Shown here piece by piece: positions 42,254-63,867 of a stretch of DNA of 64,000 nucleotides. Origin of the DNA: Paramyrothecium sp. XJ0827. Taxonomy: Eukaryota; Ascomycota; Sordariomycetes; Hypocreales; Stachybotryaceae. Under the pieces are notes generated by a model that was not told the origin of the DNA, made no database searches, and worked only from the letters and a program-made list of their open reading frames with translations. A program made the translations under genes and the position numbers. Within the stretch, counting starts at the first letter, position 1; every line of letters begins with the position of its first letter. Location of the stretch: positions 1,302,001 through 1,366,000 of the forward strand of contig JAJFPB010000006.1 in the NCBI GenBank assembly GCA_020881915.1, in the 5' to 3' direction.

Positions 42254-43989
42254 GCCTCGCCGAGTCGTGTTTTAGGCTCAGTGTCTGTGCAGTCATTTCC
42301 AGGCTTGTTCCTTCAGTCTGCACATGGCCTAAGAGGTGGCAACACACACCGAGTTGAGTTGGCCATCAGTGAGAGAATGTACAATTCTAAGTCCGCTGAA
42401 TGTTATTAATAATGAAATCAATTCTGTCAATGTCAAAAGTCTTTTGAGGGCTTTTGGTTAGTCGCCAGCATGTCATCCACCTGTTGGTGCTGAGTTGTAG
42501 CTAGTAAAGTTGAGAAATATTACGAGGTCAACGTGCCGCGGTTTGATGTTTGTTAATCCGTAACATTGTCTCATCGTAGGTTATCACAATAAACATGACA
42601 GTGGTTATCCGTCTCGGATTTAGGTACGAGTGATATTACCTCGGCACCCACCGCAACATCAACCTCAAGTCAGTATTCCTACATGTTCCGATCAGATCCT
42701 AGGCATTAAAGGATGAGCCACAAATGCATGCTTGTCTATGGCGCCGCGCTGGCCTAGAGGTTCGCTTCAATAGTGCTCAGACTTCTTCCCAGTAAAGCGT
42801 GTCGTGGATTCTCCCTCGTCCTTAACCTTCTTGTTCTCGAACAAAGATGTGGGGCTTACCACTCAGGCACTCGCATGCCAGAGATTCCGATGACGTGAAC
42901 ACTTGAGTACGGAAGTTGGTGGTCTCGAAGCCGAACCTTTCTTGCTAACAATAGGGTAAAGAGGCACTATGCCACGGTATAGACCTTTCGGTAGTTGTGG
43001 TGCAAAGGTGGAGCTACTATGCATCAGCTATCGAATTCTCATGAAGGTTCGATGCCTTGAAACTTCAATGACAGCAATGCGATCCAGTCGCAGCTTTCCT
43101 GTCACTTCTGGATCTATTATGGCATCACACTACCTATTCAATACATAAGGCCTGCCTTCTTTGTGAAACAGACTTGGAGATGCCGAAAAAGACACATCGG
43201 GAGGGAGTGTTTACAGTGAGCACTTTTGGGTCTTGAGGGGTTTCGTTCGCGGCCTCTTATTAGTCTCCTCAACCATTTGCTTCCCATTGCTGCCCGTTTC
43301 CGCGCGGCATGGCCAGATCCGCGTTGATGCCTCAAGGAATTGCCAAGACTCGCGCCACGCAACCCCTCAAGGTCCACCTGGAGACAGTCCACCACTATGC
43401 CAAGCCCATCTTGACTGGATTGTCTTGGCACGGGTGCGATCCCTTCCCGCACTGCCATGGCCAAAACCTTAAGTTCTCCTCTAACAACGGGCATAATTCT
43501 CATCGAAGCCGAAGGCTGCGGAAGTTCCTCGTGCCTTTAAACTATTGTCCTTGCAGCGGCGATCGTTCTGGTTGAGATGATCTGTGAGACTCAGCCAGAC
43601 CGCCTCGTGCCGTACTTCCGAGCCATGGCATATGCGCCAAGGTGGATCAACGCAAGTCAGCGACCACAAGTCCAACGAAGGCTTCGTCGACCGATTCATG
43701 TGGTAACGGGTTTGAAGTCGTGGCAGCTCGGGAGACGGACCAAGACTTTGCCGCTGGCTTGGCAGCTGGTGAGGTGCAGCCTCCGCATGCGGGTGATAGG
43801 CGTGGTCTGCTTGGACCCTTAATCCGAGCTTCAGGACAGTTTTACATTGGGTTGCCTCCGGGGCCGTGGAATGTTGGCCTGGTTATAAAGCCGGGGGGGT
43901 TGTCTGTTGCCGCTGGGTAATTCGTATCTCATCCACCGCATCGACTCTACCGAAACTTTTACCCAACCTCCCACACAAAAACAGACAAA
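42254..43989. other. Spacer upstream of CVNH gene
   Basis: About 1.7 kb. Overlapping short frames around 43.1-43.9 kb have no motifs and lie on both strands. No RNA gene or transposon was recognised. The last 100 bases are a pyrimidine-rich 5' leader ending in ACAAAATGG. Confidence 0.55.
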
Positions 43990-44445
43990 ATGGTCAACTT
44001 CCATCTGAGCTCCGAGGAGATCGAGCTGCGCGACGGCCACATCCTTGTTGCCAAATGCGCGAATGAGGACGGTGAATTCGTCGAGACTGAACTCGACCTT
44101 AACTACTACATTGGCAACAATGACGGTTCCTTCCAGTGGGGTGGCGAGAGTACGTGGTCTTTCATGGGAATCAAAGCTATCTCGGCTAATTTTTTTGGTT
44201 CTTCCTAGACTTTTCTGGGTCGGGCGAGGAAATTTCTTTCGAGCTCGAGGGTGACGACTCAGTCCCTGTCCTTCGTGCCGTTCTCTTCAACGTCGAGGGC
44301 GATGGCGTTCCCGCCGACTTGAATCTGGCCGAGGCCATTGGCAACGACAACGGCACCCTAGTCTTTTGTGAGTTCATCCATCCTTAAGAAATTTGCCAGG
44401 CTAGTGTCTAATTCTGGGGCTCGTACTGTAGCTCCTCCGGAGTAA
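43990..44445 (+). CDS. Small CVNH (cyanovirin-N homology) lectin-like protein
   Basis: A 110-aa protein from exons 43990-44149, 44209-44367 and 44432-44445; the last exon holds only the final four codons and the stop. It consists of one CVNH domain: NFHLSSEEIELRDGHILVAKC at the start, ELDLNYYIGNNDGSFQW, then NFSGSGEEISFELEGDD and LNLAEAIGNDNGTLVF, which shows the internal two-fold repeat of the fold. CVNH domains bind mannose-rich glycans in the founding cyanobacterial protein; single-domain fungal forms are cytosolic, lack a signal peptide and have no settled role. The ATG context (AAAATGG) and the exact in-frame splices support the model. A Myb gene begins about 340 bp downstream on the same strand. 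Confidence 0.88.
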
Positions 44446-44784
44446 AACTGGAGAAGACAAAGTGGTAGCGTCCGCGATTCGTTGTAGAACCAAGAAAAGA
44501 TAAACCTAGGTCTAGCTTACTTAATGATGCCACGATGTGGTCTAGGGTAGGGTACCAGTAGCTCGGACCTGAATCAATTGACCTAATTAAATGCCTTTTT
44601 CTCTTCGCTTATCGGAAACAAACCCCCCCCACGAGCCTTGACCCCGATCAAACCACCTCATGCGTCCCTCAACCTCGGCTACCTGATGCATCCCCCAGCA
44701 GACCAGACGAGGACGTCTGCGCCCGGCCACCGCTACTGCTGTCCGGCCAGCTGCTGAGCCGGACTTGTTCGCACGGGGAGGGGA
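44446..44784. other. Spacer between CVNH and Myb genes
   Basis: About 340 bp containing the CVNH 3' end and Myb promoter; it includes a run of nine C at about 44624-44632. Nothing else seen. Confidence 0.55.
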
Positions 44785-46225
44785 ATGTCGGCGGAGCAGT
44801 CTCCCACAGTCACACCGCCGGCATCAACTGAGGGCGGCGCAGCCAACGTCTCGCGGAGGGCCCGTCGCAGCTGGACGCCATGGGAGGACCAGTCCCTCCG
44901 GAATCGTGTTGCGCAGTACGGCCATGCGAGAGGGTCTGAGGGGAGATGGACCGAGATCGCCCAGGGCATCCCTGGTCGCACGGCCAAGGTGAGTCAATTT
45001 GTCCCAAACAAGCGATATACCTCGTTCAGATGCCTTGGACCCGGAAATGAAACCTCCATTGTGCTGACTGAATGATGAGGACTGTCGGAAACGATGGTTC
45101 CATTCGCTGGACCCTTCGCTCAGAAAGGGTCGCTGGACCGAGGATGAGGACCGCATCCTCCTTGAGGCCTATTCTAGCCTTGGCCCAGCGTGGAAGCAAA
45201 TCGCCGACCTCATTCCTGGGAGGAAGGATGACCAGTGCTCCAAGCGATACATTGACATCCTCGGCCCGTTGGCCAAGAATCGTCTCTCCGGGTGGACGCC
45301 GGAGGAAGATCGCATCCTGCGTGACAGTGTCAAAGAACTAGGCCACCGGTGGTCTGCCGTCGCCGCGAAACTGCCTGGTCGTCCACCGCTGACTTGCCGC
45401 AATCGATGGCGCAATTTATCAAAGCAGACGGCAAACTCGAGATCCACGGCTGAGCAACAGGCATCGCCCGACAGTGTGCAGCCCGCCTCCGAGGTGGATG
45501 CGCCGTACCAAACCGAGTCGCCTGCCATCTCTGGGCCTGGTGATGGACTGGACACGCCATTCAATTTTGCTGATCCCATGCCAGCTGATGTTGCTGGTGC
45601 GCGCACTCCGGTTTTAGGCAGAGGGAATGTGCTTGCCGGGGCCGACTCGTTGGGTCCAACAGCTACGGTGTCCTTGGGCTGCGACTGGAACACAGGTTTA
45701 CCTACCAATGCCGGCCACGCGTCGTTCAGTTCTATGCCAAACCTGGAGGATATGCAGGATGAAACCCTGCCGCTTGCCGGCGATCTTCTCAACTGGGACC
45801 TGGAATCGTCCTGGGAAGATCAACCATCCGCAGCGCAGCACATCGTATCAGCCCCTATCGCGGAAACACAACCACCGATTGTATCGGCGACAACGGCCCG
45901 AGCCACAGTGCAGGGCCCTCTGCAATCTCGTGCCGAGCCCAACGACTCTGGCCCTATGAACCCCGTTGACTTTCGAGCACTGGAGCTGTCCGCAGAGATG
46001 ACATCACGGTCCAGCCAACAGCTATCCAACATACCCGAAGAGACTCACTATGATGCCCAGGGCTTTCCGAACGCGGTCGGACTTCCAGCCGGTGGGGCAG
46101 AAGAGCCGATGCTCACAGACCAACCAGGTGTCCAGGAGATTCGGCACGTCACGCATCATCACTACCACCACCACCATCATTACCATCACCACCACCACCA
46201 TTATCACCACCATCACCAACAATAG
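44785..46225 (+). CDS. Three-repeat Myb/SANT DNA-binding protein with His-rich tail
   Basis: Predicted 449-aa nuclear protein; exons 44785-44988 and 45080-46225, intron 91 bp. Three consecutive Myb repeats: R1 residues about 28-77 (RRSWTPWEDQSL ... DCRKRWFHSL), R2 about 84-130 (KGRWTEDEDRILLEAYSSLG ... QCSKRYIDIL) and R3 about 136-183 (LSGWTPEEDRILRDSVKELG ... CRNRWRNLS). The intron lies inside R1, and joining TAK to DCRKRWF completes it. The remaining 260 residues are low-complexity and acidic, with no known domain. The protein ends in about 20 His/Tyr residues encoded by CAC/CAT repeats. R1R2R3-type architecture points to sequence-specific DNA binding (family knowledge); target genes are unknown. 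Confidence 0.88.
46153..46221 (+). repeat. CAC/CAT trinucleotide-like tract coding a poly-His tail
   Basis: Low-complexity run of CAT, CAC and TAC codons at the 3' end of the Myb gene, giving His blocks broken by Tyr. Such tracts are prone to length variation. Confidence 0.85.
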
Positions 46226-46822
46226 CCTCGACCGATTTGGAACGCAATCCGTCACTTAGTTATAGAATAAATGGAAGTTCACGCTGAAGCAATTCTTTAC
46301 TCCAAAGAGCAATCCATAGCTGCAGGCGATGCTTTGTCAGACTTGGTATTCTTGAACTCAGACTATGGCAGACAATTGAGCATTTTTGCAATTGATATTT
46401 TGTTTGGGGTATCTCTGAGCGTGGTGACGTTTTCAGCAGACCTGGCCGGCTAAATTGCATATGCATGACTGATTTCGTCTCTGCTTTGCACGATCTTCTC
46501 AAACATGGATCCGGCACACATGAACTTTCATCGCACCTCCTTTTCATGGCCACTTGGCAACACAACATTTTTCTGGAATCCCCGTTTTTCAGACTTGAAG
46601 TTTACATAGTATTGCGAGCGGACACAGTTTGCAAGGTCTATCAAAGCCAAAGTCAAACCACCATTATGGCTTCATGAGTCGATTAGACTACCATGGTGCT
46701 GCTTAAGAAAATTTCCGATAAATAATTAATCCTTGTCATCCAACATACATATTCAGTGAAAAATTACTACTACCTCCCGAACCCCCACCGCTGACGGAGA
46801 AGAAAGAATACAGTGACCAAGT
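46226..46822. other. Convergent spacer, Myb to reductase
   Basis: About 600 bp of 3' flanks. The short open frames at 46271-46453 and 46260-46568 lack motifs. Confidence 0.55.
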
Positions 46823-48169
46823 TCAACGTCGCTTAGGCAAGACCCCCTCCTCCTCCAGCGTCTTGAACAAATTTTGAAAGCTTTCCCACGTATCCAAATA
46901 CCCAGTCCATCCAAGGCGGCGAGCCTTGCTCATACTCTGGACGAGGTTGTAGTTGCGACCCAACACAAAGTCCGCAAATGGCCACGTCGCCTCCTGGAAA
47001 GCTTTTTGCTCCAGCCCCTCCCGCTCAGAAAGTCGCTCCCATGCGTCCTTGACATCCTTCTCTTGGCTCCATTTGACCAGGTTGATGCGTTGCGAAAGAG
47101 TGCTCTGCCACAGATGTTGCTCCAGGCCGAGCTCTTTGGCCCGCACGGAGATGGGGGGCTCGCGCTGCAGTTTTGTCTCGGCGGAGAGGGGCGACGGACG
47201 AGTGAACTGGTCCACGGGCACTTCGAGGTCAAAGTACTTAGCAAGCTTAGGCCACATGTTCTGCCACGACTCGACGTCGCCGTTTATCACGTTGAAGCCC
47301 TCGTTAGCGGCGCCTGGCTCCTGGGCTGCCCATGCGCAGAACTCGGCGTGGAGCCGGGCATCAGTGAAAGTGTCGTACATGGTGTAGAAGGCTGCGCAGC
47401 CAGGGAACGGCAGCTCCTTGCCAAGCTCCTTGCAGACAGCAGCGTAAATGGCGATGCTGCTTCCAATGTTCATGAAATTACCCTTGGCGAAGCCGATGAC
47501 GTCGTTGGGGTATGTTGCTGTCCACTCCACATCGTGCTCCTTGCAGAAGTCGAGAAGCACGCGCTGTTGGCGGTAGTAAAAGTTCTCAGGGAACGGGGGC
47601 TCAGGAAGCCTATGAATAATCAGACATAGAAAAGTTTTCAAGGGATTTGCAAGGCGTACCAAGGGTCACTCTCCTCCATAGGGCCCTTCACTTGACCCAG
47701 GTGGACGCCATATTGCTTCGCACCACACACAAGAGTGATTCGCTTGATCTTCGAGACACTGTCGTTGATGGCAAGTGCCTGCAGGAAGTTGGCCAGCATA
47801 TCGCCTAGGGAGAGCTTCAGTCAGTGAGCATGAGAACACACAGAGCTTGACTGACCATTGATTCTCGTGGCTTCCGTCTCATCGTCGACGGCCATGTACG
47901 CAGCGAAAAAGATGTACTCGGCCTCAATGCCCTTGAGCTCCTTTGCAATCCCCTCGGCAGATCCTATCAAATCAAGATGGTTGTGTGACACATTTTCAGG
48001 GTATTCGTCCTTCTTGCTGCGAGACATGGCGTAGACCCTGGACCAGTTTTTACTGGCCAGTTCATTGACGATCTCGCGGCCAAGGATGCCTGGATGTTCG
48101 CGTTAGCGGTAAATACTCAACAGCATGGAGTGACAAACCAGTGGCTCCAGTCACAATAGCCGTAGGCAT
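46823..48169 (-). CDS. PRISE-like NAD(P)-dependent short-chain reductase
   Basis: Predicted 398-aa cytosolic protein; exons in transcription order 48169-48139, 48089-47856, 47804-47660 and 47609-46823. The 31-bp first exon gives MPTAIVTGAT, and the splice completes the nucleotide-binding TGATGILGRE (TGxxGxxG) of a Rossmann fold. Introns are 49-51 bp and all joins are in frame. Further features: AEYIFFAAYMAVDD, VCGAKQYGVHLGQVKGPMEE and the block ENFYYRQQRVLLDFC. These fit the progesterone 5-beta-reductase/iridoid synthase-like (PRISE) group of extended short-chain dehydrogenases, which reduce activated double bonds. The YxxxK-like YYRQQ fits that group better than classical epimerases. The physiological substrate in fungi is unknown; some relatives sit in secondary-metabolite clusters, but no such cluster is seen here. 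Confidence 0.87.
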
Positions 48170-49108
48170 TTCGTCAGTCGAGGGGTGTTTAGTTTCGGAA
48201 AGAATAAAAGCCAGTAGGCATCAAGGTATATCTACGGATATCGGAGTAACTGGGGATATTTTCGTCCTTAAATAATGGCAGCACTCAGTTTATGAGCATC
48301 TGATGCAAGATTTTCGTACATGATGGGATTTATCTGGGTGCTGTATCCTGCACGAAGAGCGATAAAAGGGATGGGCATGACCCGAAATCTTGGGGAGTGG
48401 TAAGGTCTTCGACGTCATACTTACCGAGAGGTGGTGCGCTTCATTCGAGGAAATTTTGGAGGGGGGCGAATCGGTAAACTGACGTTCTTATTATGTCAGA
48501 ACCAGAAAATTGGGGAAGAACAGATATGGGAAACAGCATGCAAAATCATTTCTTTACCATTTTTTGTTCGAGCAGCCGATGTTGCATGGATACTGATGCT
48601 CGGGAGATCGACAGGCTTATTCGGACTGTTGGCTGCAGCATCTTGACCATCACGACGGGTGAGGCTGAGGAGAGGCAGAGAGAAGTTTAAGGGGAGTAGT
48701 AGAAGAGAGAAAGAAAACGCCAGCCCACTTCTAGAAACATGTTTCTTCATTTAACATTTGGGGTTCAAACAATATGAAAACAAAAGCTTGATGGCGATGC
48801 TGTAATGCGGCCTGGGCTTTGCCTACCCTGTAGCGTCCTACTATCTAGCAGTGAGCAAACTTTCCCAGTGAGATCAACGCCAGAAAGCAATGTAAAGAAA
48901 TTATGCTGATGTTTAAGTTAACTATTATTGTATTGTTACCGGTTTCCATGTTTCATTGAACGATCCATTTCCTTTGACCTGGGCTCACGAATTCCACTGG
49001 TCATTCACTCAGGCTTCAACTATGCATATGCTTAAATGGAAGCGAAAAAGACTTAAGAGGTTGACGCTCCAACAAATTGATTCTTAATACTTTTGATATA
49101 GTTCTTCC
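48170..49108. other. Spacer between reductase promoter and T-protein 3' end
   Basis: About 940 bp with only short overlapping frames on both strands (48431-48750). No motif, RNA or repeat recognised. Confidence 0.55.
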
Positions 49109-50416
49109 TCAAGGCTCTGCTGCCTTCAAATACTTGGTCGGGACAAAAGGCATCTTCGTGACCGTTCCCTTCCTGCTCTTGCCTCGCACCACAACCTCCA
49201 GCTCCACGCCGGCCTTGTGCAGACCATCCTTCACATAGCCCATGGCGATGTTCTTGCCTAGGGTTGGACTAGGCGAGCCGCTCGTCACTGTGCCGACAAC
49301 CTCGCCGTCTTTCAGAAGCTTCGCTCCTTCGCGCGCCGGGGCGCCGTCCACGATGACGCCGACGCGCCGGCGCTCCACGCCCGAGCCACCCTTGCTCTTC
49401 GGCTTCAGCTGGGCCAGGATGACTTCGTCGCCGTGGAACCCGCCCTTCTCTCGGCGCTCCTTGGGGATGATCCAGCTAAGCGCCGCCTCGACCGGGGTGG
49501 TCGTGTCGTCCAGGTCGTGTCCGTACAGGCACATGCCGGCCTCTAGGCGTAGGGAGTCGCGGGCGCCGAGGCCGGCGAGCTGAAGCTGCTCCGGGCCTGC
49601 ATTGGTGAGGAGCGCATCCGCAGCAAGGGCGGCGAGCTCGCCGGCAGAGCCCATGGCGGTGTTGAACGAAAGCTCGAAGCCATCCTCGCCGGTGTAGCCT
49701 CCACGGCTGATGAACACAGGCACCGACTTGCCGTCCTTGGCCTTGAGCGTTGCCAATCTCGAGTTACCAAAGTACAGGGTCTTCAGGTCCGTGTCCACCA
49801 ATTCCGAAAGAATAGCTTGCGCCTTGGGGCCCTGCAGGGCCAACAAACCGGAATCAGCCAGTTTCGACCACTGGATCTGGCCGCCGAACTTGCCCAGCTC
49901 CTCGTCAAAGTACTTGACATCCTTTTCCAGGCACGCGCCGTTGGTCACGACGTGGAACTCCTCCTCGCCTATCCTGGTCACGATTGAATCATCCACGATG
50001 CCGCCCGTCCCGCTCCACAGGAAGGTCGTCAGCTTGCCCTGCAGGACGCCCTGGTCGCTGAACCCCGACGGGGTGACCTTCTCCAGGAACGCAGCAGCGG
50101 CGGGGCCCTTGAAGATGTGCTGGACCATGTGGCTCACGTCGAACAGCGACGCATTGTTGCGGGTGAAGTGGTGGGATTGGGCGTGGGAGAGGGACGCGTA
50201 GGTGATGGGCATGTGGTGGCCGGCGAAGGGCACGAGTTTGGCGCCATTGGCGAGGTGGAAGTCGTACAGAGGAGTTTTCTTGAGGTCTGATGAGGCAGCA
50301 TCAGATGCGTGCCGCCGCTGTGAGAGGATTGTGGAGGGTTGTGCAGACGCGCGGGCCTGGAGAGTGGCAGCGGCTCGCCTGAGGGACGAGGACGCCATGA
50401 TTGACCTTTGCCTCAT
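49109..50416 (-). CDS. GCV1: Aminomethyltransferase, mitochondrial (glycine cleavage T-protein)
   Basis: Intronless 435-aa protein. T-protein takes the aminomethyl group from lipoylated H-protein, gives methylene-tetrahydrofolate and releases ammonia, in the mitochondrial matrix. The first ~45 residues are Arg/Ser/Ala-rich and lack acids (SSSLRRAAATLQARASAQPS), a typical matrix-targeting presequence. Family blocks follow: TPLYDFHLANGAKLVPFAGH, NASLFDVSHMVQ (with the folate-site Asp), GGYTGEDGFELS, and GARDSLRLEAGMCLYGHDLD. The C-terminal GVIVDGAPAREGAKL and GSPSPTLGKNIAMGYV belong to the barrel domain. A second ATG six codons in is an alternative start. The gene is divergent from SHMT with 577 bp between start codons and two GTCACCGAGTCA words between them. 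The symbol follows the yeast name. Confidence 0.95.
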   Translation of the reverse strand: MRQRSIMASSSLRRAAATLQARASAQPSTILSQRRHASDAASSDLKKTPLYDFHLANGAKLVPFAGHHMPITYASLSHAQSHHFTRNNASLFDVSHMVQHIFKGPAAAAFLEKVTPSGFSDQGVLQGKLTTFLWSGTGGIVDDSIVTRIGEEEFHVVTNGACLEKDVKYFDEELGKFGGQIQWSKLADSGLLALQGPKAQAILSELVDTDLKTLYFGNSRLATLKAKDGKSVPVFISRGGYTGEDGFELSFNTAMGSAGELAALAADALLTNAGPEQLQLAGLGARDSLRLEAGMCLYGHDLDDTTTPVEAALSWIIPKERREKGGFHGDEVILAQLKPKSKGGSGVERRRVGVIVDGAPAREGAKLLKDGEVVGTVTSGSPSPTLGKNIAMGYVKDGLHKAGVELEVVVRGKSRKGTVTKMPFVPTKYLKAAEP

Positions 50417-50993
50417 TTTCTTCTTCTTTTCCTTGTTCCTTTCCCCTTTCCTCTTGTGTTATCAAATGCGAATTGTTTTTATGTTGTGAAGAAATGGGAG
50501 TGATCAGCAGGAAACTCTCTTACAAGCGGGCAACGGGAAGGAAAGTGAACCGAGATATGAAGCGATAACGACAATCCAGCAAACCAATCAATTGCTGCTT
50601 CTTCTCGCCTGGGCTTACAGTGGCCGGAAAGTAGTGCAGGGGACGAAGCGCACTAAATCCTGGTCCCGCATGCGTAACCGTCACCGAGTCATGCGTCACC
50701 GAGTCACGCCAAGACGCGCGCAGGGCCTGGGAGGGCCGGTCATCGGGATTGAGCTGGAGATGGCGACTTTCGGGGCTTTTATCTGCGCGGCCCTTCAGCG
50801 GTATTTGGGCCGAAGCCTCCCAGCAGAGCACGCGTCTTGCCTTTGTATGAGCTGGGCTTCATTTTTCTCACGACCATTCTGAGCGACAAGACTCCTCTAG
50901 CATTGATTTTTCCTGTCAGACTTTCTAGAATCACCATTTTAATCCCTGCAGTAGCTCTAGAGCCTTGACTTTGTCCCCAAGTCAATCGTCACC
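50417..50993. promoter_or_regulatory. Bidirectional promoter between T-protein and SHMT genes
   Basis: 577 bp separating two divergent start codons of the same pathway. It contains two tandem copies of the shared word at its centre and is GC-rich around them (50.64-50.76 kb). Short frames inside it have no support. Confidence 0.7.
50681..50705 (+). promoter_or_regulatory. Two tandem TCACCGAGTC words (T/SHMT promoter)
   Basis: Exact copies at 50681-50690 and 50696-50705, spaced 15 bp start to start. Both are part of a longer match, GTCACCGAGTCA. They lie about 265 bp from the T-protein ATG and about 290 bp from the SHMT ATG, so one site pair could serve both genes. Each contains GAGTCA, the complement of TGACTC, the core bound by Gcn4/CpcA- and Bas1-type factors. 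Confidence 0.7.
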
Positions 50994-52661
50994 ATGGCCA
51001 CCTCAAGCCGTGCCTGGAAGGGCTTGAGGCCATTCGTCGCCACGCAGCGATCAACGAGACTCTATTCCACTCTGTCATCGGAGCAGTCAAAAGTGAGCAA
51101 ATACTCAACACGAGTTAAGCAGTGAACTAACCTTGGAAATAGCTTCTCGGTTCGACCCTGGCACAAAATGACCCCGAAGTCCACAGCATCCTCAAGCGTG
51201 TAAGTCCACCACCATCTTGGCTTTTCGCCATCCACTGACCCGGATTGAAGGAGGAGCAACGGCAGCGCCGCTTCATCAACCTCATTCCCTCGGAGAACTT
51301 CACCTCCAAAGCCGTGCTCAACGCCCTCGGCAGTGTGATGCAGAACAAGTACTCCGAGGGCTACCCTGGCGCACGCTACTACGGAGGCAATGAGCACATT
51401 GACGAGGCCGAGAGGCTTTGCCAGCAACGCGCTCTGCGAGCGTTCAACCTCACCGCTGATCGATGGGGTGTCAATGTTCAGCGTAAGTCTTTGCTTCGTT
51501 GTCCGCGGCTTAGCCATCTGCTCACATTCCGCAGCCCTCTCTGGATCGCCTGCGAATCTGTACGCCTATTCCGCCGTGCTCCAGCCCCATGATCGCATTA
51601 TGGGGCTGGACCTCCCTCATGGCGGTCATCTATCGCATGGTTATCAGATCCCCACCAAGAAGATTTCCATGGTCTCCAAGTACTTCGAGACCTTCCCCTA
51701 CCGCCTCGATGAGTCTACCGGTCTCATCGACTACGCCAAGCTCCGCGAGAGCGCCCTCCTCTACCGTCCCAAGATTATCATCGCCGGAACGTCTGCTTAC
51801 TCGCGCCTCATCGACTACCCCCAGATGCGCGCCATTGCTGACGAGGTGGGCGCCTACCTCCTCGCTGACATGGCGCACATTTCCGGTCTCGTTGCTGCCG
51901 GCGTCATCCCCTCCCCATTCGAGTACGCAGACATTGTGACGACCACAACGCACAAGTCGCTGCGCGGCCCCCGCGGTGCCATGATCTTCTTCCGCAAGGG
52001 CGTGAGAAGTGTCAACAAGAAGGGCGAAGAGACCAAGTACGACCTGGAAAACCCCATCAACGCTTCCGTCTTCCCAGGCCACCAGGGAGGACCCCACAAC
52101 CACACAATCACCGCGCTGGCCGTTGCGCTGCAACAAGCTCAGAGCCCGCAATTCAAGGAGTACCAGAAGACCGTGTTGGAGAACGCCAAGGCTTTTGCAA
52201 GCCAGCTCTCCGAGACACACGGCCACAAGCTTGTCTCGGGTGGCACGGACAACCACCTGGTTCTTGTTGACCTCAAGCCCAAGGGAATTGACGGAGCCCG
52301 TGTCGAGCGCGTCCTGGAGCTCTGCGGAGTCGCCAGCAACAAGAACACGGTCCCCGGAGACAAGTCCGCCCTCCGACCCGGCGGTCTGCGCCTGGGCACG
52401 CCGGCCATGACAACCAGGGGCTTCACGGCGGAGGACTTCAAGCGGGTGGCCGACATTGTGCACCGCGGTGTCGACATCACGATCAAGGTCGATGCGCAGG
52501 CCAAGGAGGCTGCGGCGGCCAAGGGAGTCAAGAACCCGTCCACGCAGAAGGCTTTCCTGGAGCACCTGGGCGACGGATCTGCGGTGGCCGAGATTGGCGC
52601 GCTGAGGAAGGAGGTTGAGGAGTGGGTTGGTGGATTTGACGAGCCCTGGATTGAATCATGA
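50994..52661 (+). CDS. SHM1: Serine hydroxymethyltransferase, mitochondrial
   Basis: Predicted 504-aa PLP enzyme that interconverts serine and glycine with transfer of a one-carbon unit to tetrahydrofolate. Exons 50994-51092, 51143-51199, 51251-51482 and 51535-52661; introns 50-52 bp, all in frame. The first exon encodes a presequence, [20 protein letters not shown], rich in Arg and free of acids, so this should be the mitochondrial form. Exon joins restore [20 protein letters not shown] and [16 protein letters not shown], both strongly conserved. The PLP lysine is Lys270 in [32 protein letters not shown] and [10 protein letters not shown] are further family blocks. The start codon ACCATGGCC has a near-ideal context. 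The gene shares a bidirectional promoter with the T-protein gene and is followed by the H-protein gene. Confidence 0.96.
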
Positions 52662-53286
52662 TACAATACAATACAATAGAAAAGCGGCGTTTACGATGGC
52701 ATTTGAGGCTGGATTGATGGGTACTTCGGAGATACCTCAAATTTGGCTTAAGTGTGGGACGTCAGCAAGTAACCAATAGGTCAAAATCGGAACTGTTGAA
52801 CCAGCGACGGTCAACACCAACATGTCATTTCATTGAGGCGTATATACTAGAGACGAGCGTCAATTTTCACAAGAATTTATTCAACAGTCTGAAGGGTCTA
52901 ATACAGTACGGCGAGGCTCATGCCAGACGCTTGTGTCAATAACGTGACCGGTCGCACCATGTCACCCGTGAAGTTTTCACGAACGAGTAGTTGAGACCAA
53001 AAGCGATGCGATGCTGTAAATGTGTGAATGATCATTTTAGGTTCCCAACAGAATGATTGCAAAAGATCTTGAAATTCTCAAACAAAGCCTGACATCTCCG
53101 AACTTCTCACAAGTATTTTTTATACATATCTTCTTCAAAACTCTATTGCCAACAATGGTACAACATTCGCGGCCTCTATTTCTCACTCACCCACGCTCTC
53201 ACGTCGGAAAACCCAGTTTCGGGGTTGCTGCGCCGACCCCGGCCACGCGAAGATCCCTGCCAAAGCCTATCTCGCCGGACCCATTG

Positions 53287-53296
53287 TCACCGAGTC
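53287..53296 (+). promoter_or_regulatory. TCACCGAGTC word 1 before H-protein gene
   Basis: Exact 10-mer; first of four in 134 bp, all in the same orientation, about 340 bp before the ATG. Confidence 0.65.
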
Positions 53297-53323
53297 TGCT
53301 GTGGAAAGTGCCCTGGAAAAATG

Positions 53324-53333
53324 TCACCGAGTC
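53324..53333 (+). promoter_or_regulatory. TCACCGAGTC word 2 before H-protein gene
   Basis: Exact 10-mer, preceded by ATG as part of ATGTCACCGAGTCC. Confidence 0.65.
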
Positions 53334-53383
53334 CTGAGGCAATCAATTATGTGGGGGCGTGCTGGGACCCTGGGAGGGGCGGT

Positions 53384-53393
53384 TCACCGAGTC
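53384..53393 (+). promoter_or_regulatory. TCACCGAGTC word 3 before H-protein gene
   Basis: Exact 10-mer, 60 bp after the previous start. Confidence 0.65.
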
Positions 53394-53410
53394 TGTGGGG
53401 ACGAGTTCAA

Positions 53411-53420
53411 TCACCGAGTC
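53411..53420 (+). promoter_or_regulatory. TCACCGAGTC word 4 before H-protein gene
   Basis: Exact 10-mer, 215 bp before the H-protein ATG; the closest to a start codon of all copies. Confidence 0.65.
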
Positions 53421-53635
53421 TAGAACAGGCCCCGATCCCGGATTCTAGGGCATGACGGCTTGGCCCGGGCGCGAGTCAGGCTTGAGCCGTGGGGAAACTC
53501 AATCATATCTACGTGAGGATAGCATCAAGCGTGGCTTCTTCATCGACAGACCGAATTGGCTGGCTGAGAGAGTTTTCTTCAGGCTCATTAGCTACACCTC
53601 CCTTTCTCTATCTGCTGCATCAATAGACCCTCACG

Positions 53636-54264
53636 ATGGCTTCGCTCTTCGCCAAGAATGCCCTGCGCATCTGCCCCAAGGCACTGCCAGCGCGATCTTC
53701 ATTTACGACAAAGTTGACTGCCTGCAGCAGTAAGCAATGGGCCGCGCAGTCAACGAGATGCTTCTCACAATCACTCCCTCGTACGTCTCCAGGGCGCTTT
53801 ATTTAACAGAATGGGTTCTAACCAGCACAGGCCTTGAGAAGCGGTTCACAGAAAGCCATGAGTGGGTGGACCTGAGCGCGAATGGAAAGACTTGTAAGTG
53901 CGGCAGTGCACCAACTCACACGACGCCGTGGCTCACACATCTCACAGACAAGGTCGGCATCACCAACCACGCCGCTGAAGCTCTCGGCGACATTGTCTTT
54001 GTCGAGGTCCCCGAGGTGGGCGACGAGATCACTTCTGGTGAGGCGTTTGGTTCCGTGGAATCCGTCAAGTCCGCGTCAGACCTAGTCTCCCCGATTTCAG
54101 GAACAGTTGTCGCCGCCAACGACCAGATCGTCGAGAAGCCCTCTGACCTGAGCAACGACCCGGAAGGAGAGGGCTGGTTGGTCGAGGTCGAGCCCACGGA
54201 CGTGTCGTCGGTGGAGGGGCTCATGGACGCGGCTGCGTATGCGGAGTTTGTTAAGGACCACTAG
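53636..54264 (+). CDS. GCV3: Glycine cleavage system H-protein, mitochondrial
   Basis: Predicted 174-aa lipoyl carrier that shuttles the aminomethyl group among P-, T- and L-proteins. Exons 53636-53780, 53831-53893 and 53948-54264. The first exon encodes a presequence (MASLFAKNALRICPKALPAR and a further Arg/Ser-rich stretch ending CFSQSLPR). A donor-like AGTAAG at 53729 was not used: reading through adds more presequence and the later GTACGT donor at 53781 leaves a normal 50-bp intron. Mature sequence: RFTESHEWVDL, then YKVGITNHAAEALGDIVFVE, and the lipoylation site Lys110 in GSVESVKSASDLVSPISG. It ends DAAAYAEFVKDH. Length and motifs are standard. Converges with the P-protein gene; the 3' ends are 268 bp apart. 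Confidence 0.94.
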
Positions 54265-54532
54265 ATTAAATGAACAAAATAATAGGAAGTTGAGTGTAAT
54301 GAAGAACTTTGTTCTTAATGATATCTATTTCTTGGTAATGGTTTTGTCTGCCCGAACTCCATGCTTTGCCCATCGTTGAATCTAAAAATGGCCAACGTTT
54401 CGACCCTGGTTGAACGGGGTGAACACATAAAATATTGCGCCTTCTAAAGATGCTCGTAAAATGATCTAAAAAAAAACCAGATGCTCTCTATCATCCCAGC
54501 CTCCGACCCTTTCCGAATCCCAAAATGCAGAA

Positions 54533-54870
54533 TTACTCGCTATCCTCCACAGGTGGGCAAGTGCAGAACAAGTTGCTGTCACCGAATGCATCGTCAACCC
54601 TGGCCACCGAAGGCCAGAACTTCTTCTCCCTGAGCCAGCCCAGCGGGTAGGCCGCCTCCTCTCGGGTGTAAGGGCGGTCCCACTCCGCGCGCAGCAGATC
54701 TTGCTGGGGGTGGGGCGCGTTCTTCAGGACGTTGTTCGTCTTGGGCACCTTTCCGGACTCAATGTTGGCAATCTCCTTTCGGATCTGGATGAAGGCGTCG
54801 CAGAAGCGGTCGAGCTCAGCGCGGGACTCGGACTCGGTGGGCTCGATCATCAGGGTTCCAGAGACGGGCC

Positions 54871-54902
<32 letters not shown>

Positions 54903-56480
54903 TGGAGACGCTTGGCGATATCCACAGCCTCGATGCCCGCAGTCTCCTTGAAGGGGCGGGCGTCCAGGATAAACTCGTGAGCGCAACGGCCGTTGGAGTT
55001 GGTGTAGACGATCTTGTAGTGCGGGCTCAGACGGGACATGATGTAGTTGGCGTTGAGCAGGGCGACGCCAGTCTGCTTGGTCAGGCCGTCACCGCCCATG
55101 AGCTGGATGTAGGCGTGCGTGATGGGGAGGATGGACGCGCTGCCCCAGGGAGCGGCGCTGATTGGGGCCACAGCCGTGCTCTCACGAGCAACACCGCCAT
55201 GCTGAGGGTCAACAATGGGGTGGCCGGGGAGATAGGCCGCCAAGTGCTCCTTCACACCGATGGGTCCAACACCAGGACCACCGCCTCCGTGGGGAATACA
55301 GAAGGTCTTGTGGAGGTTCAGGTGGCACACGTCTGCGCCGATGTCGCCAGGGCTGCAGAGGCCGATCTGAGCATTGAGGTTCGCGCCGTCCATGTAGACC
55401 TGGCCGCCGTGCTCGTGCACAATGCGGCACACCTCCTTGACCTCGGGCTCAAAGACACCGAACGTGCTGGGGTAGGTGATCATGATGGCGGCCAACTGGT
55501 CGGCGTGCGTGGCGCACTTGGCCTTGAGGTCCGCGATGTCGAGGTTGCCGGTCTGGGTGTCGCACTTGATGGAGACGACCTTCATGCCTGCCATGGCCGC
55601 GCTGGCTGGGTTGGTTCCGTGCGCAGAGACGGGGATGAGGCAGATGTTCCTCTTGTTGTTGCCCTCCTTCTCGGCGTGGTATCGCTGGATGACGCGGAGG
55701 CCGGCAAACTCACCCTGCGCGCCGGAGTTGGGCTGCAGGCTGATCTTGTCCATGCCCGTCACGGTAGCCAGATTCTGGCTGACGGTGTCGATGAGCGCCT
55801 GGTAGCCGGGAGCTTGGTTGACGGGGGCGAAGGGGTGGATGTTGGAGAAGCCGGGCTGCGAGACGGGCTGCATCTCGGTTGTGGCGTTGAGCTTCATCGT
55901 GCAGGATCCCAGGGGGATCATGGAGTGCACAAGAGAGAGATCCTTGGCGCCGAGGTGGTAGATGTAGCGGAGCAGCTCAGTCTCGGTGTGGTACTTGTTG
56001 AAGACGGGCTGCTGCAGGTACGAGGACTGGCGCTGGAGGTTGGTGGGAATGGTCTTGTTCACGGCAGCGCTTCCGGCCTCGAGGGCGGACGTGAACTTCT
56101 GCTCGGAAACGCCGAAGCACTGGACCAGACGACCGAGAGTCTCAACACTGATGCCCTCGTGCAGAGAGAAGCCAACCTTGTCCTCGGACACCTGTCGGAG
56201 GTTGATGTTGGCCGCCGAAGCCTTCTTGTGCGCCTCGGACACGGCCTCAGGAGTGCCCTGCAGCGTGACGGTGTCGAACAGGACGGAGCCGTCTTCTTGA
56301 ACACCCGAAGTAAAGGTCTTGAAGGCACCCTCCTGCACGATCAACTCCTGTGCCAGCCGCGTCTTGCTGGCAATGTCCTCCGCAATGGCCTTCAGTCCCT
56401 CGGGGCCGTGGTAGATGGCGTAGAAGGCGCTCATGTTGGCCAGCAGCGCCTGGGCGGTGCAGATGTTGCTCGTCGCCTTC

Positions 56481-56512
<32 letters not shown>

Positions 56513-57679
56513 GGCGAGGCGCAGAGCCCGGTTGTTCAGGCGGTCCTTTGACACGCCGACGATGCGGCCGGGGATCTTGCGCTTGTACTTGTCGGCGCAA
56601 GCAAAGAAGCCCGCATGGGGACCACCATAGCCGAGAGGAACGCCCAGCCTCTGCGCGCTGCCGACAGCAATGTCGGCGCCGAACTCGCCGGGGGCCTTGA
56701 GCCTCGTCAAGGCGAGGAGATCGGTGGCGACGCAGACGAGACCCTTCTTCTCGTGGACGAGGTCCGAGAGCTGCTGGTAATCGAAAACACCTCCGTGGGT
56801 ATCGGGGTACTGGATGAGCGTGCCGATGAGGGTACCGGCGTTGTCGCGGATCAGGGCACAGTTGTCCCTCAGGACATCGCCAATAACAATCTCAATTCCG
56901 AAGCCCTCCGCTCGCGATTGGAGGACAGACAGGGTCTGAGGGTGGCAGTTCTCCGACACGACAAAGGTCTTGTTTGCGGCCTTGGCCGGGGCGTTGGCCC
57001 ACGCCATAGTCATGGCCTCGGCGGCGGCGGTGGACTCATCCAGGACGGACGCGTTCGCAATGGCCAAGCCCGTCATCTCGCTGACGAGAGTCTGGAAGTT
57101 GAGCAGCGACTCGAGGCGGCCCTGGCTGATCTCGGCCTGGTAGGGGGTGTAGCTCGTGTACCAGGCAGGGTTCTCCAGGATGTTCCTCTGGATGACGGGA
57201 GGCACCAGAGTTCCGTAGTAACCGCTTCCAATGAATGATTCATTCTCGACGTTGAGCTCCGCGAGCTTGTTCAAGCGCTCCTTGACCACGTGCTCTGGGT
57301 ACCCATCCACGGGAATGGGCGTAGGCTCAGCAGTGCTGTCTCGCTGCTCAACCAGTCGCAGACTGGTCTCTTTCCGGCGGACCTGTGAAGGGATGGTCTG
57401 CTGGATGAACTCCTCCATGGAGGACACTGGGGGAACAAGTGCCTTGAGCATCTCTACATGCTCCTCGGGCTCGCTGCCGTTGTGGCGCCGCGAGAACCTC
57501 TCATGGTCGCGGATGGCCACAGATGACTGAACATTGGCGAAGCTGCTGGTCGACTGCGATCGAGCAGCTTGGGCAGAGAAGGCTGTGTATTGGCAAGGGG
57601 TGCGTCGCGCAACTGCGCTGAGAATAGCGCGACCGCACTGCCGCCGCGCAATGCGGGCTGAGCGCACTGTAGGAAGCAT
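54533..57679 (-). CDS. GCV2: Glycine dehydrogenase (decarboxylating), mitochondrial P-protein
   Basis: Intronless 1048-aa PLP enzyme that decarboxylates glycine and passes the aminomethyl group to H-protein lipoate. The start was taken at the ATG of MLPTVRSARIARRQCGRAIL: the open frame extends 12 codons further only to a TTG, and this ATG opens an Arg-rich matrix presequence of about 50 residues. Family blocks: FIGSGYYGTLVPPVIQRNIL, WYTSYTPYQAEISQGRLESL, LDESTAAAEAM, then in the C-terminal half SLVHSMIPLGSCTMKLN and the PLP-lysine site HLNLHKTFCIPHGGGGPG (Lys about 791). The two-domain length is usual for eukaryotic P-proteins. Codon use is strongly G/C-ending, which produces a long but meaningless antisense open frame at 54701-56551. 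Two TCACCGAGTC words (inverted, so oriented toward this gene) lie about 410-440 bp upstream. Confidence 0.96.
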
Positions 57680-57990
57680 CGCAACTGTGGCGTGCTTGCT
57701 TGACGTCGATGTCAAGCCTAGTCAGGGGGAGACGAAGCTTGCTTGAAAATGCTAAATAAGTGAACCCCCAAGAATGTTGCTCAGTGAGTGCGAGCGTGTG
57801 TCGACTGTGGCTGTACGGCAGTCTGAGTGAAGCCCAATCAGCAACGAGGGCGCAAACTCAAAGTGATGTGAACAAAGAACAATGCAAAGAGCGGTCGAAG
57901 AAGCAATGACAGGGTTTTCATCCCGCTGCTAATAAGTGAAGGCCTTGCTCCGTCGCTCGGCGAGAAGCAACAACCGCTCACAAACGAGCC

Positions 57991-58000
57991 GACTCGGTGC
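57991..58000 (-). promoter_or_regulatory. Nine-of-ten match to the glycine-cluster word
   Basis: GACTCGGTGC, one base from GACTCGGTGA (the complement of TCACCGAGTC), about 310 bp upstream of the P-protein ATG. Confidence 0.45.
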
Positions 58001-58091
58001 GAGCATGCATGCGTGCGTGCTAATCCTTAGCCTTCCAGGTCGCACCAATGCTCGTTTGCGCGCGCAGGAGCCCACATGTTATTGTGGGCCT

Positions 58092-58118
58092 GACTCGGTG
58101 ACATTCGTGACTCGGTGA
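58092..58118 (-). promoter_or_regulatory. Two TCACCGAGTC words before P-protein gene
   Basis: GACTCGGTGA at 58092-58101 and 58109-58118, 17 bp start to start. Both are preceded by T, giving TGACTCGGTGA. In the orientation of the P-protein gene they read TCACCGAGTCA, as in the T/SHMT promoter. Confidence 0.68.
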
Positions 58119-59736: not shown

Positions 59737-62700
59737 ATGAATGCTCGACAAAATCAAGATCAAAATAATATTGACGGCTTGCCGCTTGATCGTTCTGACT
59801 CTTCTGAAGCGCCACAGGCTATTCTTAATAGTGAGGAACTAAACGAAAGCCACCAAGAAATCGAGACACCTCCAGAAAATGCCAGCCAGTGTCTACTCCA
59901 GGTAGAGCCCAAGGAGCCAACTCTACCGAATGACATTCACCCAGACGAGGTCGAGAACAATATCCAAAGACATTCATTTTCGCTGGTTAACAGCAAGCAT
60001 TATGTACTTCAGTCTGGACAGATCTCATCGACTGAGCCAGGACAGAATAGCCTCAGGATTCAGAGCAACCAATTAGAGAGCATTGGAATTCCACCATCTG
60101 ACGACTCCTCTTCTGAGCCCTCCGCCCAAAATGAGGAAAGCGATCAAATCACGCCGACTTCGACGAGAATTGTGTCCATGTCAAGCTCATATAGCCAGAA
60201 TGAGAACGAGGTGCTGTCAGTCTCACCCACACCTGTGAGAGACGAGTTGAGCTCGACTTGGACACCAAAATTCATGCGACCGGTCACTTTCCTTGCGTTC
60301 GGTTTACTCATGGTCACGCTTTTTACTATTATCACGATCCTTTACGTCATCTCCCGTCAGAACAGCGGCCTTGCAGCTGTATCTCCTACCTTGTATTACT
60401 TGTGGCGGTTTGGTCCCGTTGCTAGTAGGTAACAGCCAAACCCTTGAACTGTTATGGTATGCTGACTCTGACTAGTCCTCATTTTGGCCTCCCTCGTGTG
60501 GTCCCGAGTTGAAGTAGAAAGCCTTTGCTACGCACCTTGGATCAAGTTGCACCAGGACAGTGGTGCTCCATTTTCTCAGACCTTGTTACTCAACTATTTC
60601 TCGGTCTTGCAGCCTTGGGTACTAGTCAAGGCGGCAAATATCAAAGATTGGCTCGTTCTTTCCATAGTCTTGGTTACGATTCTCTTGAAGCTACAAACGA
60701 TTGTTTCCGCCAGTTTGTTCGTCATAGAACAGACCGAGGTCTTTCGTTACGGGGTACCTCTACATATAGCTTCAGACTTCGTTCAGCAACTGAACCCACT
60801 CGCCTTCCTCTTGTGGCAACCCGCAGAGACCATCAAGGCAATAAGCTCCTTCGACATCCCCTACCCAGAGGGAACTGGAAGTGGCTTTGTGTATCAAGGA
60901 TTCAATGCTGTGAATCCAGAGCTAGACAACATCATGATCGAGGCTGAGGTAGACATCCTTCGAGGGGAAGCACAATGCGAAATTGGGCAGATCACTTCCT
61001 ACCAAGGCTACTACAATCCTGAAGACGGGACTTATTACGAAGAGTTAACAGGACGTGTACCTCAATGCTCCGAGTCATTTCAGATTTATGCCGAGTCCCC
61101 CCAAGGGTGGCATCAATTTGGTGATCGAGCCTGGTATTCGGACTTTGCAAGTGTTCAGGAGAACAGTTCCTGCAAGGAAGACACGGTACATTTTGCGTAT
61201 TGGAGAGCCAAGTCTTCAAGAAACGACACCAATCGGGCACAAAACACAACCCTGGAGCATTCTGTGATGATAGCCTGCCATGTAGGCGCAACTATAACCT
61301 CAGGAAAGGTTTTGCAAAATCGGACAACTTCAAGTTATTCCATAGATCCGACTGCAAAGTCACGCCCAGCGCCGTTCAATATTGTGCAACTCATGCACAA
61401 TATGGGAACTTTTGCAGACCCGCATCATGGCTACAATCTTTCGTATGGCGGCTACATAGGTTGGGCCTTGGAGGTCCTAGAAGGGGGACGAGAATGGTGG
61501 CCAGCCCAATTTCCAATCCAACCATTGGATCGGGATTTTAAGTTCACCTCGCTCACGAATACCAGCTTTGCTCGGCAATTCGTTGAGGACAGTTTCAAAC
61601 ACTTAATTCCATTGACAGTCAGCTATTTGGCGATGGATCATGTTTCGAGAGAAATCACTGGCTCGGCACTTGTTTCACAAAATCGACTGTTCGTCCAAAC
61701 CTTACAATATGCAATCATGGCTACGGTCTTTGGTCTTCTCATTATTTTGACCTTCTTGGCACTCTACTTTGTTCCAAAGAAGCCTTTCTCGGGCAAAGAT
61801 CCTGCCACTTTCATTCATTCCGTTGCGTTTTTGGTTAATAACCCTGCACTCAAAGCAACACTGCAGGGCTCGGGCCATATGTCAGACGAGGAAACTGAAA
61901 CCAAGTTCCAACAAATCGCAGATCTAAAGGCCCAAAAGCATTGGACGATGAAGTGGCTTGAATCCCTACATACAAGCTTCCATCTACGATTGCAAAAACC
62001 CCAAAATCATCATTCACACGGCAAGATGGAAATTAGCAATGTTTACTCTCCTACTTCTCAGACAGCCGCCCTGAAGCAATCGGGTGAAAAGCAGATGGTG
62101 TGGTATTGCCCGTGGCAGCTTTTCATCTTTGTACGCGTAGCATTCGTCGGCTTCGTTGCTCTCGTGATTAGTCTCATCAGCTATAGCTGTAGCGTATCTC
62201 GGAGAAATGGAGGATTGTTTGATCTGGGAGTCGCTCCGGTTGAATCCTTTTTGTGGACTTCTTTGCCAACCTTGATCGCCGTGGCAATCGGAGGATATCT
62301 AACTGCTGCATATCTTGCAGTGCGTCTCGTCGCACCGTTCGCCTGCATAGTCGAAGGTAGCCGTTACCCCCTATTGAAGATCTCTTTCAATGAGCACTTC
62401 AGCGTGCTGAAAGCAGTCACACACTCCTCTTCGCGTCTGGCCTTGCTACTTGCCATGCTGTGTGCTGGAGCGTCGCTAGTGCTAACCTCTCTGGGGAGTT
62501 CTTTGCTTGCGGAAGAATACATAACTAGAGAATCGGTAATACAGGCGCAGCATGATTCCTGGTTTTCAAGCACCCGAAACCCCCCAGCCAGCAACCTCAG
62601 CTCTAAGGAATTAGGCCCGGAGGAAACCGCAAAAGCAATGGATGTTGCCATGATCTTAGGCCTCTTATTCTACCGAAACTCTTCATTTCCGGCTTGGACG

Positions 62701-63867
62701 TACGAGGATCTTGTGTTCCCTCAGCTGTCTATCCCAGACTTGCCTCATGGTCACTCTTCGAACTTGACGGCTAGATTTCAGGTCCCAGCCCTCCGCCCTG
62801 AGTTTGATTGCAAAACTCTTGACAAAGATGAGCTGGACTTGACTCTGGAAGGACCCAAACCGAGCTCTGATGGGCGGCAAGGACTACTGCGGCTCAACGC
62901 GACACTGAAAGAAGAGGATGAAAACTTTGGCCTGCCACGTTTCACGCTCCGAGCCTGCGATGACAACCCCGACATACGCTTCAGGTCAACAATCGAAGAT
63001 ACCTCCCGTGGCATCGTGGAGCGTTCTTTCATGTGGGGACAGATTGAGAATGGGAAGGTGACTTACTTCAAATGGATGCTCTGCAAGCTCGCATTCGTTG
63101 AGATCGATGTCGACCTCTCTTTACTACTCCCGGGTCTCGAGATAGATACAACCCATCCTCCTATTCCGATTGAGTCATCCAAGCGCCGGCTGCCTCTTCT
63201 AGAATGGGACAATCTCGTTGAACTTGCGACTTGGTTGTACGTGAAGAACTTTCAGCCTATATTGGATATCGGACGGTTGTCACCATGTGAAAGTGGCACA
63301 TTTGTTGGTGGTGGTCGCGCAGAAATTGCCCTCACCACTTCACCTTGGGGAATCCCTGGACCGTGGTTTTACGACGAGAGCAAACAAGACGCCGCGGAAG
63401 CAGCTTGGAAGAAACTCAGTGGTATTGAAATTGCACAATTGCTTAATTATCATGGGTATCGCAGAAGCTTCGACGGCAATGCTCCCGACACAGCGCCCCC
63501 TCGGCCTCCACCTATAAGAGGCATTCTTATCGACCACCGGGTCAAGAGACTAGTCCAGAGCCCAATAGCCACAGGCATCATCATAGGTGTCTTAGGTCTC
63601 ATTGCTCTCGCAACTCTTGGCAGCCTTTGGGTCGAACGAGGGTTCCAGAGAGTTTTGCCAAAAGATCCACGAAGTATTGCACACATGGCGTCCTTGTGGG
63701 CTGGCTCGAACATATTCTCAGAAATTTCCAAAGTCCAGGAACGGGCTCCTTCATCAGCAGCAGATGATCTTGCGGAACTGTTAAATCACAAAATCTTCAA
63801 GATGACTTGGGCGCCAGTACCAAATGAAGGTAGCGAAAATCAGTACGCTATCCATGTGACAGGATGA
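59737..63867 (+). CDS. Large DUF3433-family membrane protein
   Basis: Predicted 1359-aa protein; exons 59737-60424 and 60476-63867, intron 51 bp with a CTGAC branch point. The first ~185 residues are hydrophilic and Ser/Glu/Gln-rich. A transmembrane segment (FLAFGLLMVTLFTIITILYV) is followed by LYYLWRFGPVAILILASLVW, formed across the splice, and by VEVESLCYAPWIKL; these are hallmarks of the fungal DUF3433 domain. A second, more divergent copy starts near PWQLFIFVRVAFVGFVALVI and includes LWTSLPTLIAVAIGGYLTAA. A hydrophobic stretch near the end (GIIIGVLGLIALATLGSLWV) precedes a short cytosolic tail. Between the helices are large loops with many N-glycosylation sequons, so most of the protein should face outside or a lumen. 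No function is known for the family. Confidence 0.88.

Follow-up and report, generated by a model that had tools for sequence, protein, structure and literature searches.

A repeated 10-bp word before clustered glycine cleavage genes of Paramyrothecium sp. XJ0827: putative operator of a glycine-to-pyruvate regulon beside a Bas1-type Myb gene

In Paramyrothecium sp. XJ0827 a 64-kb stretch of contig JAJFPB010000006.1 (positions 1,302,001 to 1,366,000, called the window below and numbered from its first letter) carries a cluster of glycine cleavage genes, and the regions upstream of these genes share a 10-bp word, TCACCGAGTC, which reads GACTCGGTGA on the opposite strand. This raises the question of whether the word is an operator, which genes it marks and which protein might read it. 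Judged from the sequence, an operator function of TCACCGAGTC is well supported, and it is probably an extended Bas1 site that serves as operator of a glycine-to-pyruvate regulon and is read by a Bas1-type Myb protein encoded next to the cluster. According to Pfam the genes between 49.1 and 57.7 kb stand in the order GcvT (minus strand), serine hydroxymethyltransferase (SHMT, plus), GcvH (plus) and GcvP (minus). The aminomethyltransferase GcvT, the clustered copy T1 (49109..50416, start at 50416 or 50398), is matched by GCV_T with E 2e-75 and by TIGR00528 above its cut-off, and SHMT (50994..52661, several exons) by the SHMT family with E 7e-156 for its main exon. The lipoyl carrier protein GcvH (53636..54264, spliced) is matched by GCV_H with E 5e-35 for the main exon and the glycine dehydrogenase GcvP, the clustered copy P1 (54533..57679), by GDC-P with E 9e-174 and by TIGR00461 with 1351 bits. 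By eye, the N-terminus of SHMT looks mitochondrial.

Two exact copies of the word lie in the divergent promoter between GcvT and SHMT (50681..50690 and 50696..50705, plus strand, 15 bp apart), four in the GcvH promoter (53287..53296, 53324..53333, 53384..53393 and 53411..53420, plus strand) and two in the GcvP promoter (58092..58101 and 58109..58118, minus strand, 17 bp apart), which also holds the 9/10 copy GCACCGAGTC (57991..58000, minus strand). The initial annotation of this DNA had listed these eight exact copies and the 9/10 copy at 57991, and every coordinate checks out, as does its remark that the window has no exact copy outside the three promoters (8/8 inside). It had also described four genes as marked, which is right for T, SHMT, H and P, but only three intergenic regions are involved, as T and SHMT share one. 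The word is the most frequent 10-mer of the window (n = 8, runners-up n = 5), and in a Markov-1 simulation no 10-mer rose above 5 copies in any of 60 windows. With at most one mismatch allowed the window gives 15 matches, compared with a shuffled mean of 3.78 and a maximum of 8 in 100 shuffles. A second 9/10 copy, CCACCGAGTC (54831..54840, minus strand), had been missed earlier; it lies on the coding strand within the GcvP coding region and is probably there by chance.

In the whole genome (51.77 Mb, 15 contigs) we counted 119 exact copies of TCACCGAGTC (2.3 per Mb) versus 152 for a reversed-word control, so that the word alone is not enriched and stays at chance level; its distinguishing feature is close repetition. 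At the genome rate the local density has a Poisson P of 9e-7 for the T/SHMT promoter, 3e-13 for H and 2e-6 for P, calculated with the sites already known. We therefore regard the close pairs, rather than the single copies, as the telling feature, and scanned the whole genome for the same-strand pattern CACCGAG N3-33 CACCGAG, which was fitted to the spacings in the window and is blind to gene function. It returned 50 pairs versus 49 in the reversed control, which means that most of the 50 are chance. Both members are exact 10-mers in only five of them, four in the window cluster and one on another contig (C13:1149374-1149398), and the chance expectation of pairs within 40 bp among the 111 copies other than the eight of the window is about 0.009. 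Across the 109 of 119 exact positions inspected, the list within which opposite-strand pairs were also sought, exact pairs at most 40 bp apart occur in promoters of pathway genes only. The proposal had been said to fall if the word were common at unrelated promoters; this applies in part, to single copies, which occur genome-wide at chance level, but not to the exact pairs found within 40 bp among these positions. Among the 50 loci, two were read with wide flanks, 30 were assessed from the letters of the sites plus any open frames and the others from the letters only, so that weaker members with 9/10 copies may exist.

A second scan, CCGAGTC N3-33 CCGAGTC, gave 43 pairs versus 56 in the control, and its candidates were set aside, C8:1692684 having a Ras-like GTPase alongside and C2:2011176 and C10:1873664 consisting of just 8/10 to 9/10 copies. 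An exact and a 9/10 copy at C13:4122357 fall within a glycosyltransferase 2 coding region and were taken as chance. Two pairs of exact copies are 1.9-2.0 kb apart, C8:1297822/1299714, which adjoin an amylo-alpha-1,6-glucosidase frame, and C9:5216185/5218181. No pathway gene was recognised at single exact sites, for which 13 of the first 30 places were checked for neighbouring frames and eight frames from seven loci were scanned with Pfam; two of these frames had no family and one a weak WD40-like match, and the other five gave an oxidoreductase, a sugar transporter, a P450, NOG1 and MOSC.

The exact pair outside the cluster lies 438-462 bp upstream of an open reading frame (ORF) on C13 and has a spacing of 15 bp, equal to that of the T/SHMT pair. 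The ORF joins SDH_beta and SDH_alpha in one protein and reaches 504 bits with TIGR00720, the monomeric L-serine ammonia-lyase model, versus a cut-off of 345; with this equivalog cut-off passed, the predicted product is a monomeric iron-sulfur L-serine dehydratase of bacterial type, and no further SDH_alpha match was found in the genome. Glycine cleavage together with SHMT turns glycine into serine, and serine dehydratase turns serine into pyruvate and ammonia. As the enzyme acts on the serine that glycine cleavage and SHMT produce, a scan blind to function led to the enzyme of the following step, and the idea of a dedicated operator is strengthened by this gene outside the window. The arginine-rich N-terminus of the serine dehydratase looks mitochondrial by eye.

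The ten exact sites also say something about the form of the element. The word has the same orientation towards SHMT, H and P but the opposite one towards T and serine dehydratase. This agrees with an element bound as DNA rather than one that acts as RNA, and an RNA element was rejected for this reason. Its edges are sharp, with flanking columns at or below 0.7 bits and at position 11 a preference of 6 A, 3 T and 1 C. That the ten copies are identical is built into the search and is not itself a sign of rigidity, but beside them the four target stretches hold a single additional copy with one mismatch, which is an independent sign that the site is rigid. The gaps between close copies (15, 37, 27, 17 and 15 bp, or 1.43, 3.52, 2.57, 1.62 and 1.43 helical turns) lie near half-integer turns and the remaining 60-bp gap corresponds to 5.71 turns, a small sample in which the regularity was spotted post hoc.

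Outside the cluster the genome has another glycine cleavage set whose genes are dispersed, T2 (C10:2465277, 69% to T1), P2 (C10:1814448-1816724, 55% to P1 over the main exon) and H2 (C14:3963), and two further SHMT genes at C11:3772164 and C10:3870479, three in all. Together with the genes for C1-tetrahydrofolate (C1-THF) synthase and lipoamide dehydrogenase these served as seven controls, with approximate stretches and some start codons unmapped. Upstream of the four target units there are 10 exact copies in 3067 bp versus none in 6921 bp upstream of the controls (0/7). The word thus looks like a mark of the clustered set and of glycine to serine to pyruvate catabolism, not of glycine or folate genes generally. 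The glycine/folate regulon proposed in the initial annotation is accordingly supported in part but was drawn too wide, as an exact copy is missing from the stretches read upstream of C1-THF synthase, lipoamide dehydrogenase and both other SHMT genes.

A candidate reader is encoded in the window itself. The gene for a Bas1-type R1R2R3 Myb transcription factor (44785..46225, plus strand, intron 44989-45079, spliced by eye and script) lies 2.9 kb from GcvT, with a PRISE-like reductase gene in between (46823..48170, minus strand, PRISE with E 1e-12 for the last exon, upstream end placed by eye). The Myb protein has three tandem N-terminal repeats (three stretches of PF00249), and among the matches listed its nearest relative and many other homologues are annotated BAS1. 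It is the sole gene of Bas1 type found in the genome, other matches having 33-53% identity over short stretches and E values of 6e-13 or weaker. The motifs KDCRKRW, KDDQCSKRY and LTCRNRWR of its repeats, presumably located at the recognition helices, are kept, minor changes aside, in yeast Bas1 proteins (alignment rows from Trichomonascus, Sugiyamaella and Yarrowia) and in a protein of Lichtheimia (Mucoromycota). GACTCGGTGA contains GACTC, which is 5/6 bases of the yeast Bas1 motif TGACTC, plus GGTGA; the motif is given in a title cited in PMC6234034, and the accessible part of PMC3789790 ties the yeast one-carbon regulon including GCV1-3 to Bas1. The shared part of the word had been described as not explained by Bas1, which holds for GGTGA but not for GACTC, and of the two readers suggested, a bZIP or a Myb factor with extended specificity, the Myb gains weight from the gene beside the cluster and from the same linkage in another order.

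We infer that this Myb protein binds TCACCGAGTC and acts as an activator with glycine or serine as the signal. In the regulon the glycine cleavage proteins P, H and T would act with SHMT to lead from glycine to serine, and the iron-sulfur-type L-serine dehydratase would then lead from serine to pyruvate and ammonia. The operator copies, about 215-460 bp upstream of the start codons, would each be bound as a 10-bp unit, with the GACTC side as the ancestral Bas1 core and the GGTGA half of GACTCGGTGA as an added contact, perhaps made by the first Myb repeat. In this way the Myb protein would switch the gene set jointly, most likely upward when glycine or serine is plentiful.

The histidine/tyrosine-rich C-terminal tail of the Myb protein (window 46130-46225) recurs in four other filamentous-fungal Bas1-type proteins, metal binding or regulation being possible roles. 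Before the Myb gene a small gene (43991-44446) resembles the part of a Paramyrothecium protein that bears PF08881 (CVNH) and that is annotated as fused to Myb. One fungal Myb of Bas1 type is filed under a Candidatus Bathyarchaeota metagenome-assembled genome (contig of 4020 bp), probably as fungal contamination.

The linkage of the Myb gene to glycine cleavage genes is repeated elsewhere. In Lomentospora prolificans (Microascales) GcvP (jhhlp_006966), GcvT (006968) and Myb (006969) come with the same contig size, 1956546, and the Paramyrothecium records for Myb, T and P share a size of 2184222. P and T of Stachybotrys elegans share 1493002, its Myb not being among the 120 matches listed out of 232; of two JGI proteins sharing 28289 one is a GcvP and the other a fragment that matches Myb in its C-terminal part, and two ENA proteins sharing 94663 are T and P. 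Placement on one contig was read from equal sizes (one-member clusters), with neighbouring locus tags in Lomentospora only. P and T appear unlinked, among the matches listed, in Cosmosporella and Mariannaea (contigs of different size); the listed P and T of Fusarium floridanum have distant tags (002848 and 003184), and contig sizes differ in Dactylonectria, though one of its clusters is multi-member; further P or T copies beyond these matches are possible in all four.

The closest named protein relative is Paramyrothecium foliicola (Stachybotryaceae, Hypocreales), with GcvT at 94%, GcvP at 95% and Myb at 77%. In quick trees with SH-aLRT support only, built from chosen rows (29 of 120 listed for T, 28 of 120 for P and 27 of 120 for Myb), T1, P1 and Myb of the window each group with Lomentospora (SH-aLRT 99, 100 and 99, respectively). 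T2 falls among other Hypocreales without a firm place, and P2 stands on a long branch outside all the rows used, these having been picked for nearness to P1. The three trees would fit either a transfer of the cluster or an old duplicate that was retained as one unit. A GcvT scan for stray fungal loci gave 80 bacterial loci in the genome contig collection and nothing in viral contigs.

Several observations weigh against reading the word as an extended Bas1 site under control of the linked Myb protein. Just 6/10 exact sites have the base needed for a complete TGACTC, which means that the yeast core is not strictly conserved, and the surroundings of the Myb gene (43000-49100) hold no copy with fewer than two mismatches and thus no sign of self-control. 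The classical Bas1 targets C1-THF synthase and the C11 and C10 SHMTs likewise have no copy with fewer than two mismatches in the upstream stretches read, and P2 carries one 9/10 copy upstream, the sole one among the seven control stretches. The serine dehydratase pair consists of a unit of about 15 bp repeated in tandem, with similar flanks, and may be one event rather than two. Finally, exact and 9/10 copies also lie 24 bp apart at C9:1924631 (C9:1924629-1924662, no long open frame over them, a Tc5-type transposase frame near) and 19 bp apart at C9:5216185, where the frame between this place and the further exact copy at C9:5218181 encodes 255 aa without Pfam family (stretch C9:5216166-5218190). 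No pathway gene was recognised beside either pair; we did not count them as members, and they may be either chance or unexplained parts of the regulon.

The variable T of TGACTC and the missing operator near the Myb gene, together with a CGG triplet on one strand of the word, would suit an operator of the same glycine/serine regulon whose reader is a different factor, such as a zinc-cluster or bZIP protein with its gene elsewhere, the Myb gene being a neighbour for some other reason. We consider this possible though unlikely, because the Myb linkage occurs in both Microascales and Stachybotryaceae with agreeing trees and the word holds the 6-bp Bas1 motif but for one base. A classical, yeast-like Bas1 purine/one-carbon regulon, represented in the window by some of its members only, would explain the presence of a Bas1-type Myb along with GCV targets, and in Candida albicans Bas1 is required for basal expression of SHM2 and ADE3, according to the accessible part of PMC5541157. 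It is nevertheless improbable, given that the classical targets read here, C1-THF synthase and the two other SHMTs, are unmarked and that serine dehydratase is catabolic; plain TGACTC occurs only once upstream of these three unmarked genes, before the C10 SHMT.

General amino acid control by CpcA/Gcn4, with the GAGTCA ends as bZIP sites and the remainder of the word incidental, could draw on the extension to GAGTCA, which is found in 4/8 window copies, as claimed before, and in both serine dehydratase copies. We think it very improbable, as none of the T/SHMT, H and P stretches contains a full TGASTCA (serine dehydratase and the unmarked T2 each have one upstream) and a bZIP site does not need the recurring TCACC half. 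Chance, or a repeat with no part in regulation that local duplication or a transposon has spread, can hardly be the answer: it would agree with the lack of genome-wide enrichment, the resemblance of the serine dehydratase pair to a short tandem duplication and the pair near the Tc5-type transposase frame, but the window copies have differing flanks, exact pairs within 40 bp are confined to pathway promoters among the positions inspected and the Poisson P is 2e-6 to 3e-13 per promoter.

An extended Bas1 site read by the linked Myb protein also has parallels in known systems. Fungal nutrient-use clusters such as those for quinic acid and proline have adjacent catabolic genes, a linked regulator gene and repeated operators in each promoter. 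The present locus resembles them in its adjacent catabolic genes, neighbouring regulator gene and repeated putative operators, but differs in having a Bas1-type Myb, the glycine cleavage pathway and one member on another contig. With the yeast Bas1 one-carbon/purine regulon it shares, judged by sequence, a Myb protein with three repeats that belongs to the same family, GCV genes that carry sites and GACTC in the site; unlike there, the site is a 10-bp word with an extra GGTGA and a variable core T, the regulator gene is physically linked to its putative targets, serine dehydratase is included, and C1-THF synthase and the other SHMTs are unmarked. Bas1-type Myb proteins are widespread across filamentous fungi among the matches listed, and BasR (AN7174) and AN8377 of Aspergillus nidulans are such proteins. 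In the accessible part of PMC6234034 BasR is connected with orsellinic acid and further secondary metabolites, is said to lack the Bas2-interacting BIRD region, and its function and that of AN8377 in filamentous fungi are called ‘completely unknown’; within that part the term glycine is absent from the main text on BasR, and TGACTC appears in the reference list only. No earlier report of TCACCGAGTC as a fungal regulatory site was seen among the papers listed by searches of the open-licence literature, the coverage of which is incomplete; a Trichoderma paper that contains the word has it within a qRT-PCR primer in its accessible part (PMC10956257). Beyond the cluster the window contains a long DUF3433 gene (60484-63867).

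More tentatively, and with considerable doubt on our side, the locus might be a self-contained module in which a second glycine cleavage set is combined with a Bas1-type Myb of its own and with a 10-bp operator read by all three repeats. Such a module would have been moved or kept as a unit between Microascales and Stachybotryaceae and would later have captured serine dehydratase elsewhere in the genome via an acquired operator, Bas1 having been rewired from purine synthesis to glycine catabolism. If true, a yeast regulator would have been redirected from supplying one-carbon units and purines to the use of glycine, and the gene cluster would carry its own switch. For the Bas1-type Myb proteins of filamentous fungi the locus provides a definite set of putative targets together with a sharply bounded DNA site and a candidate for its reader.

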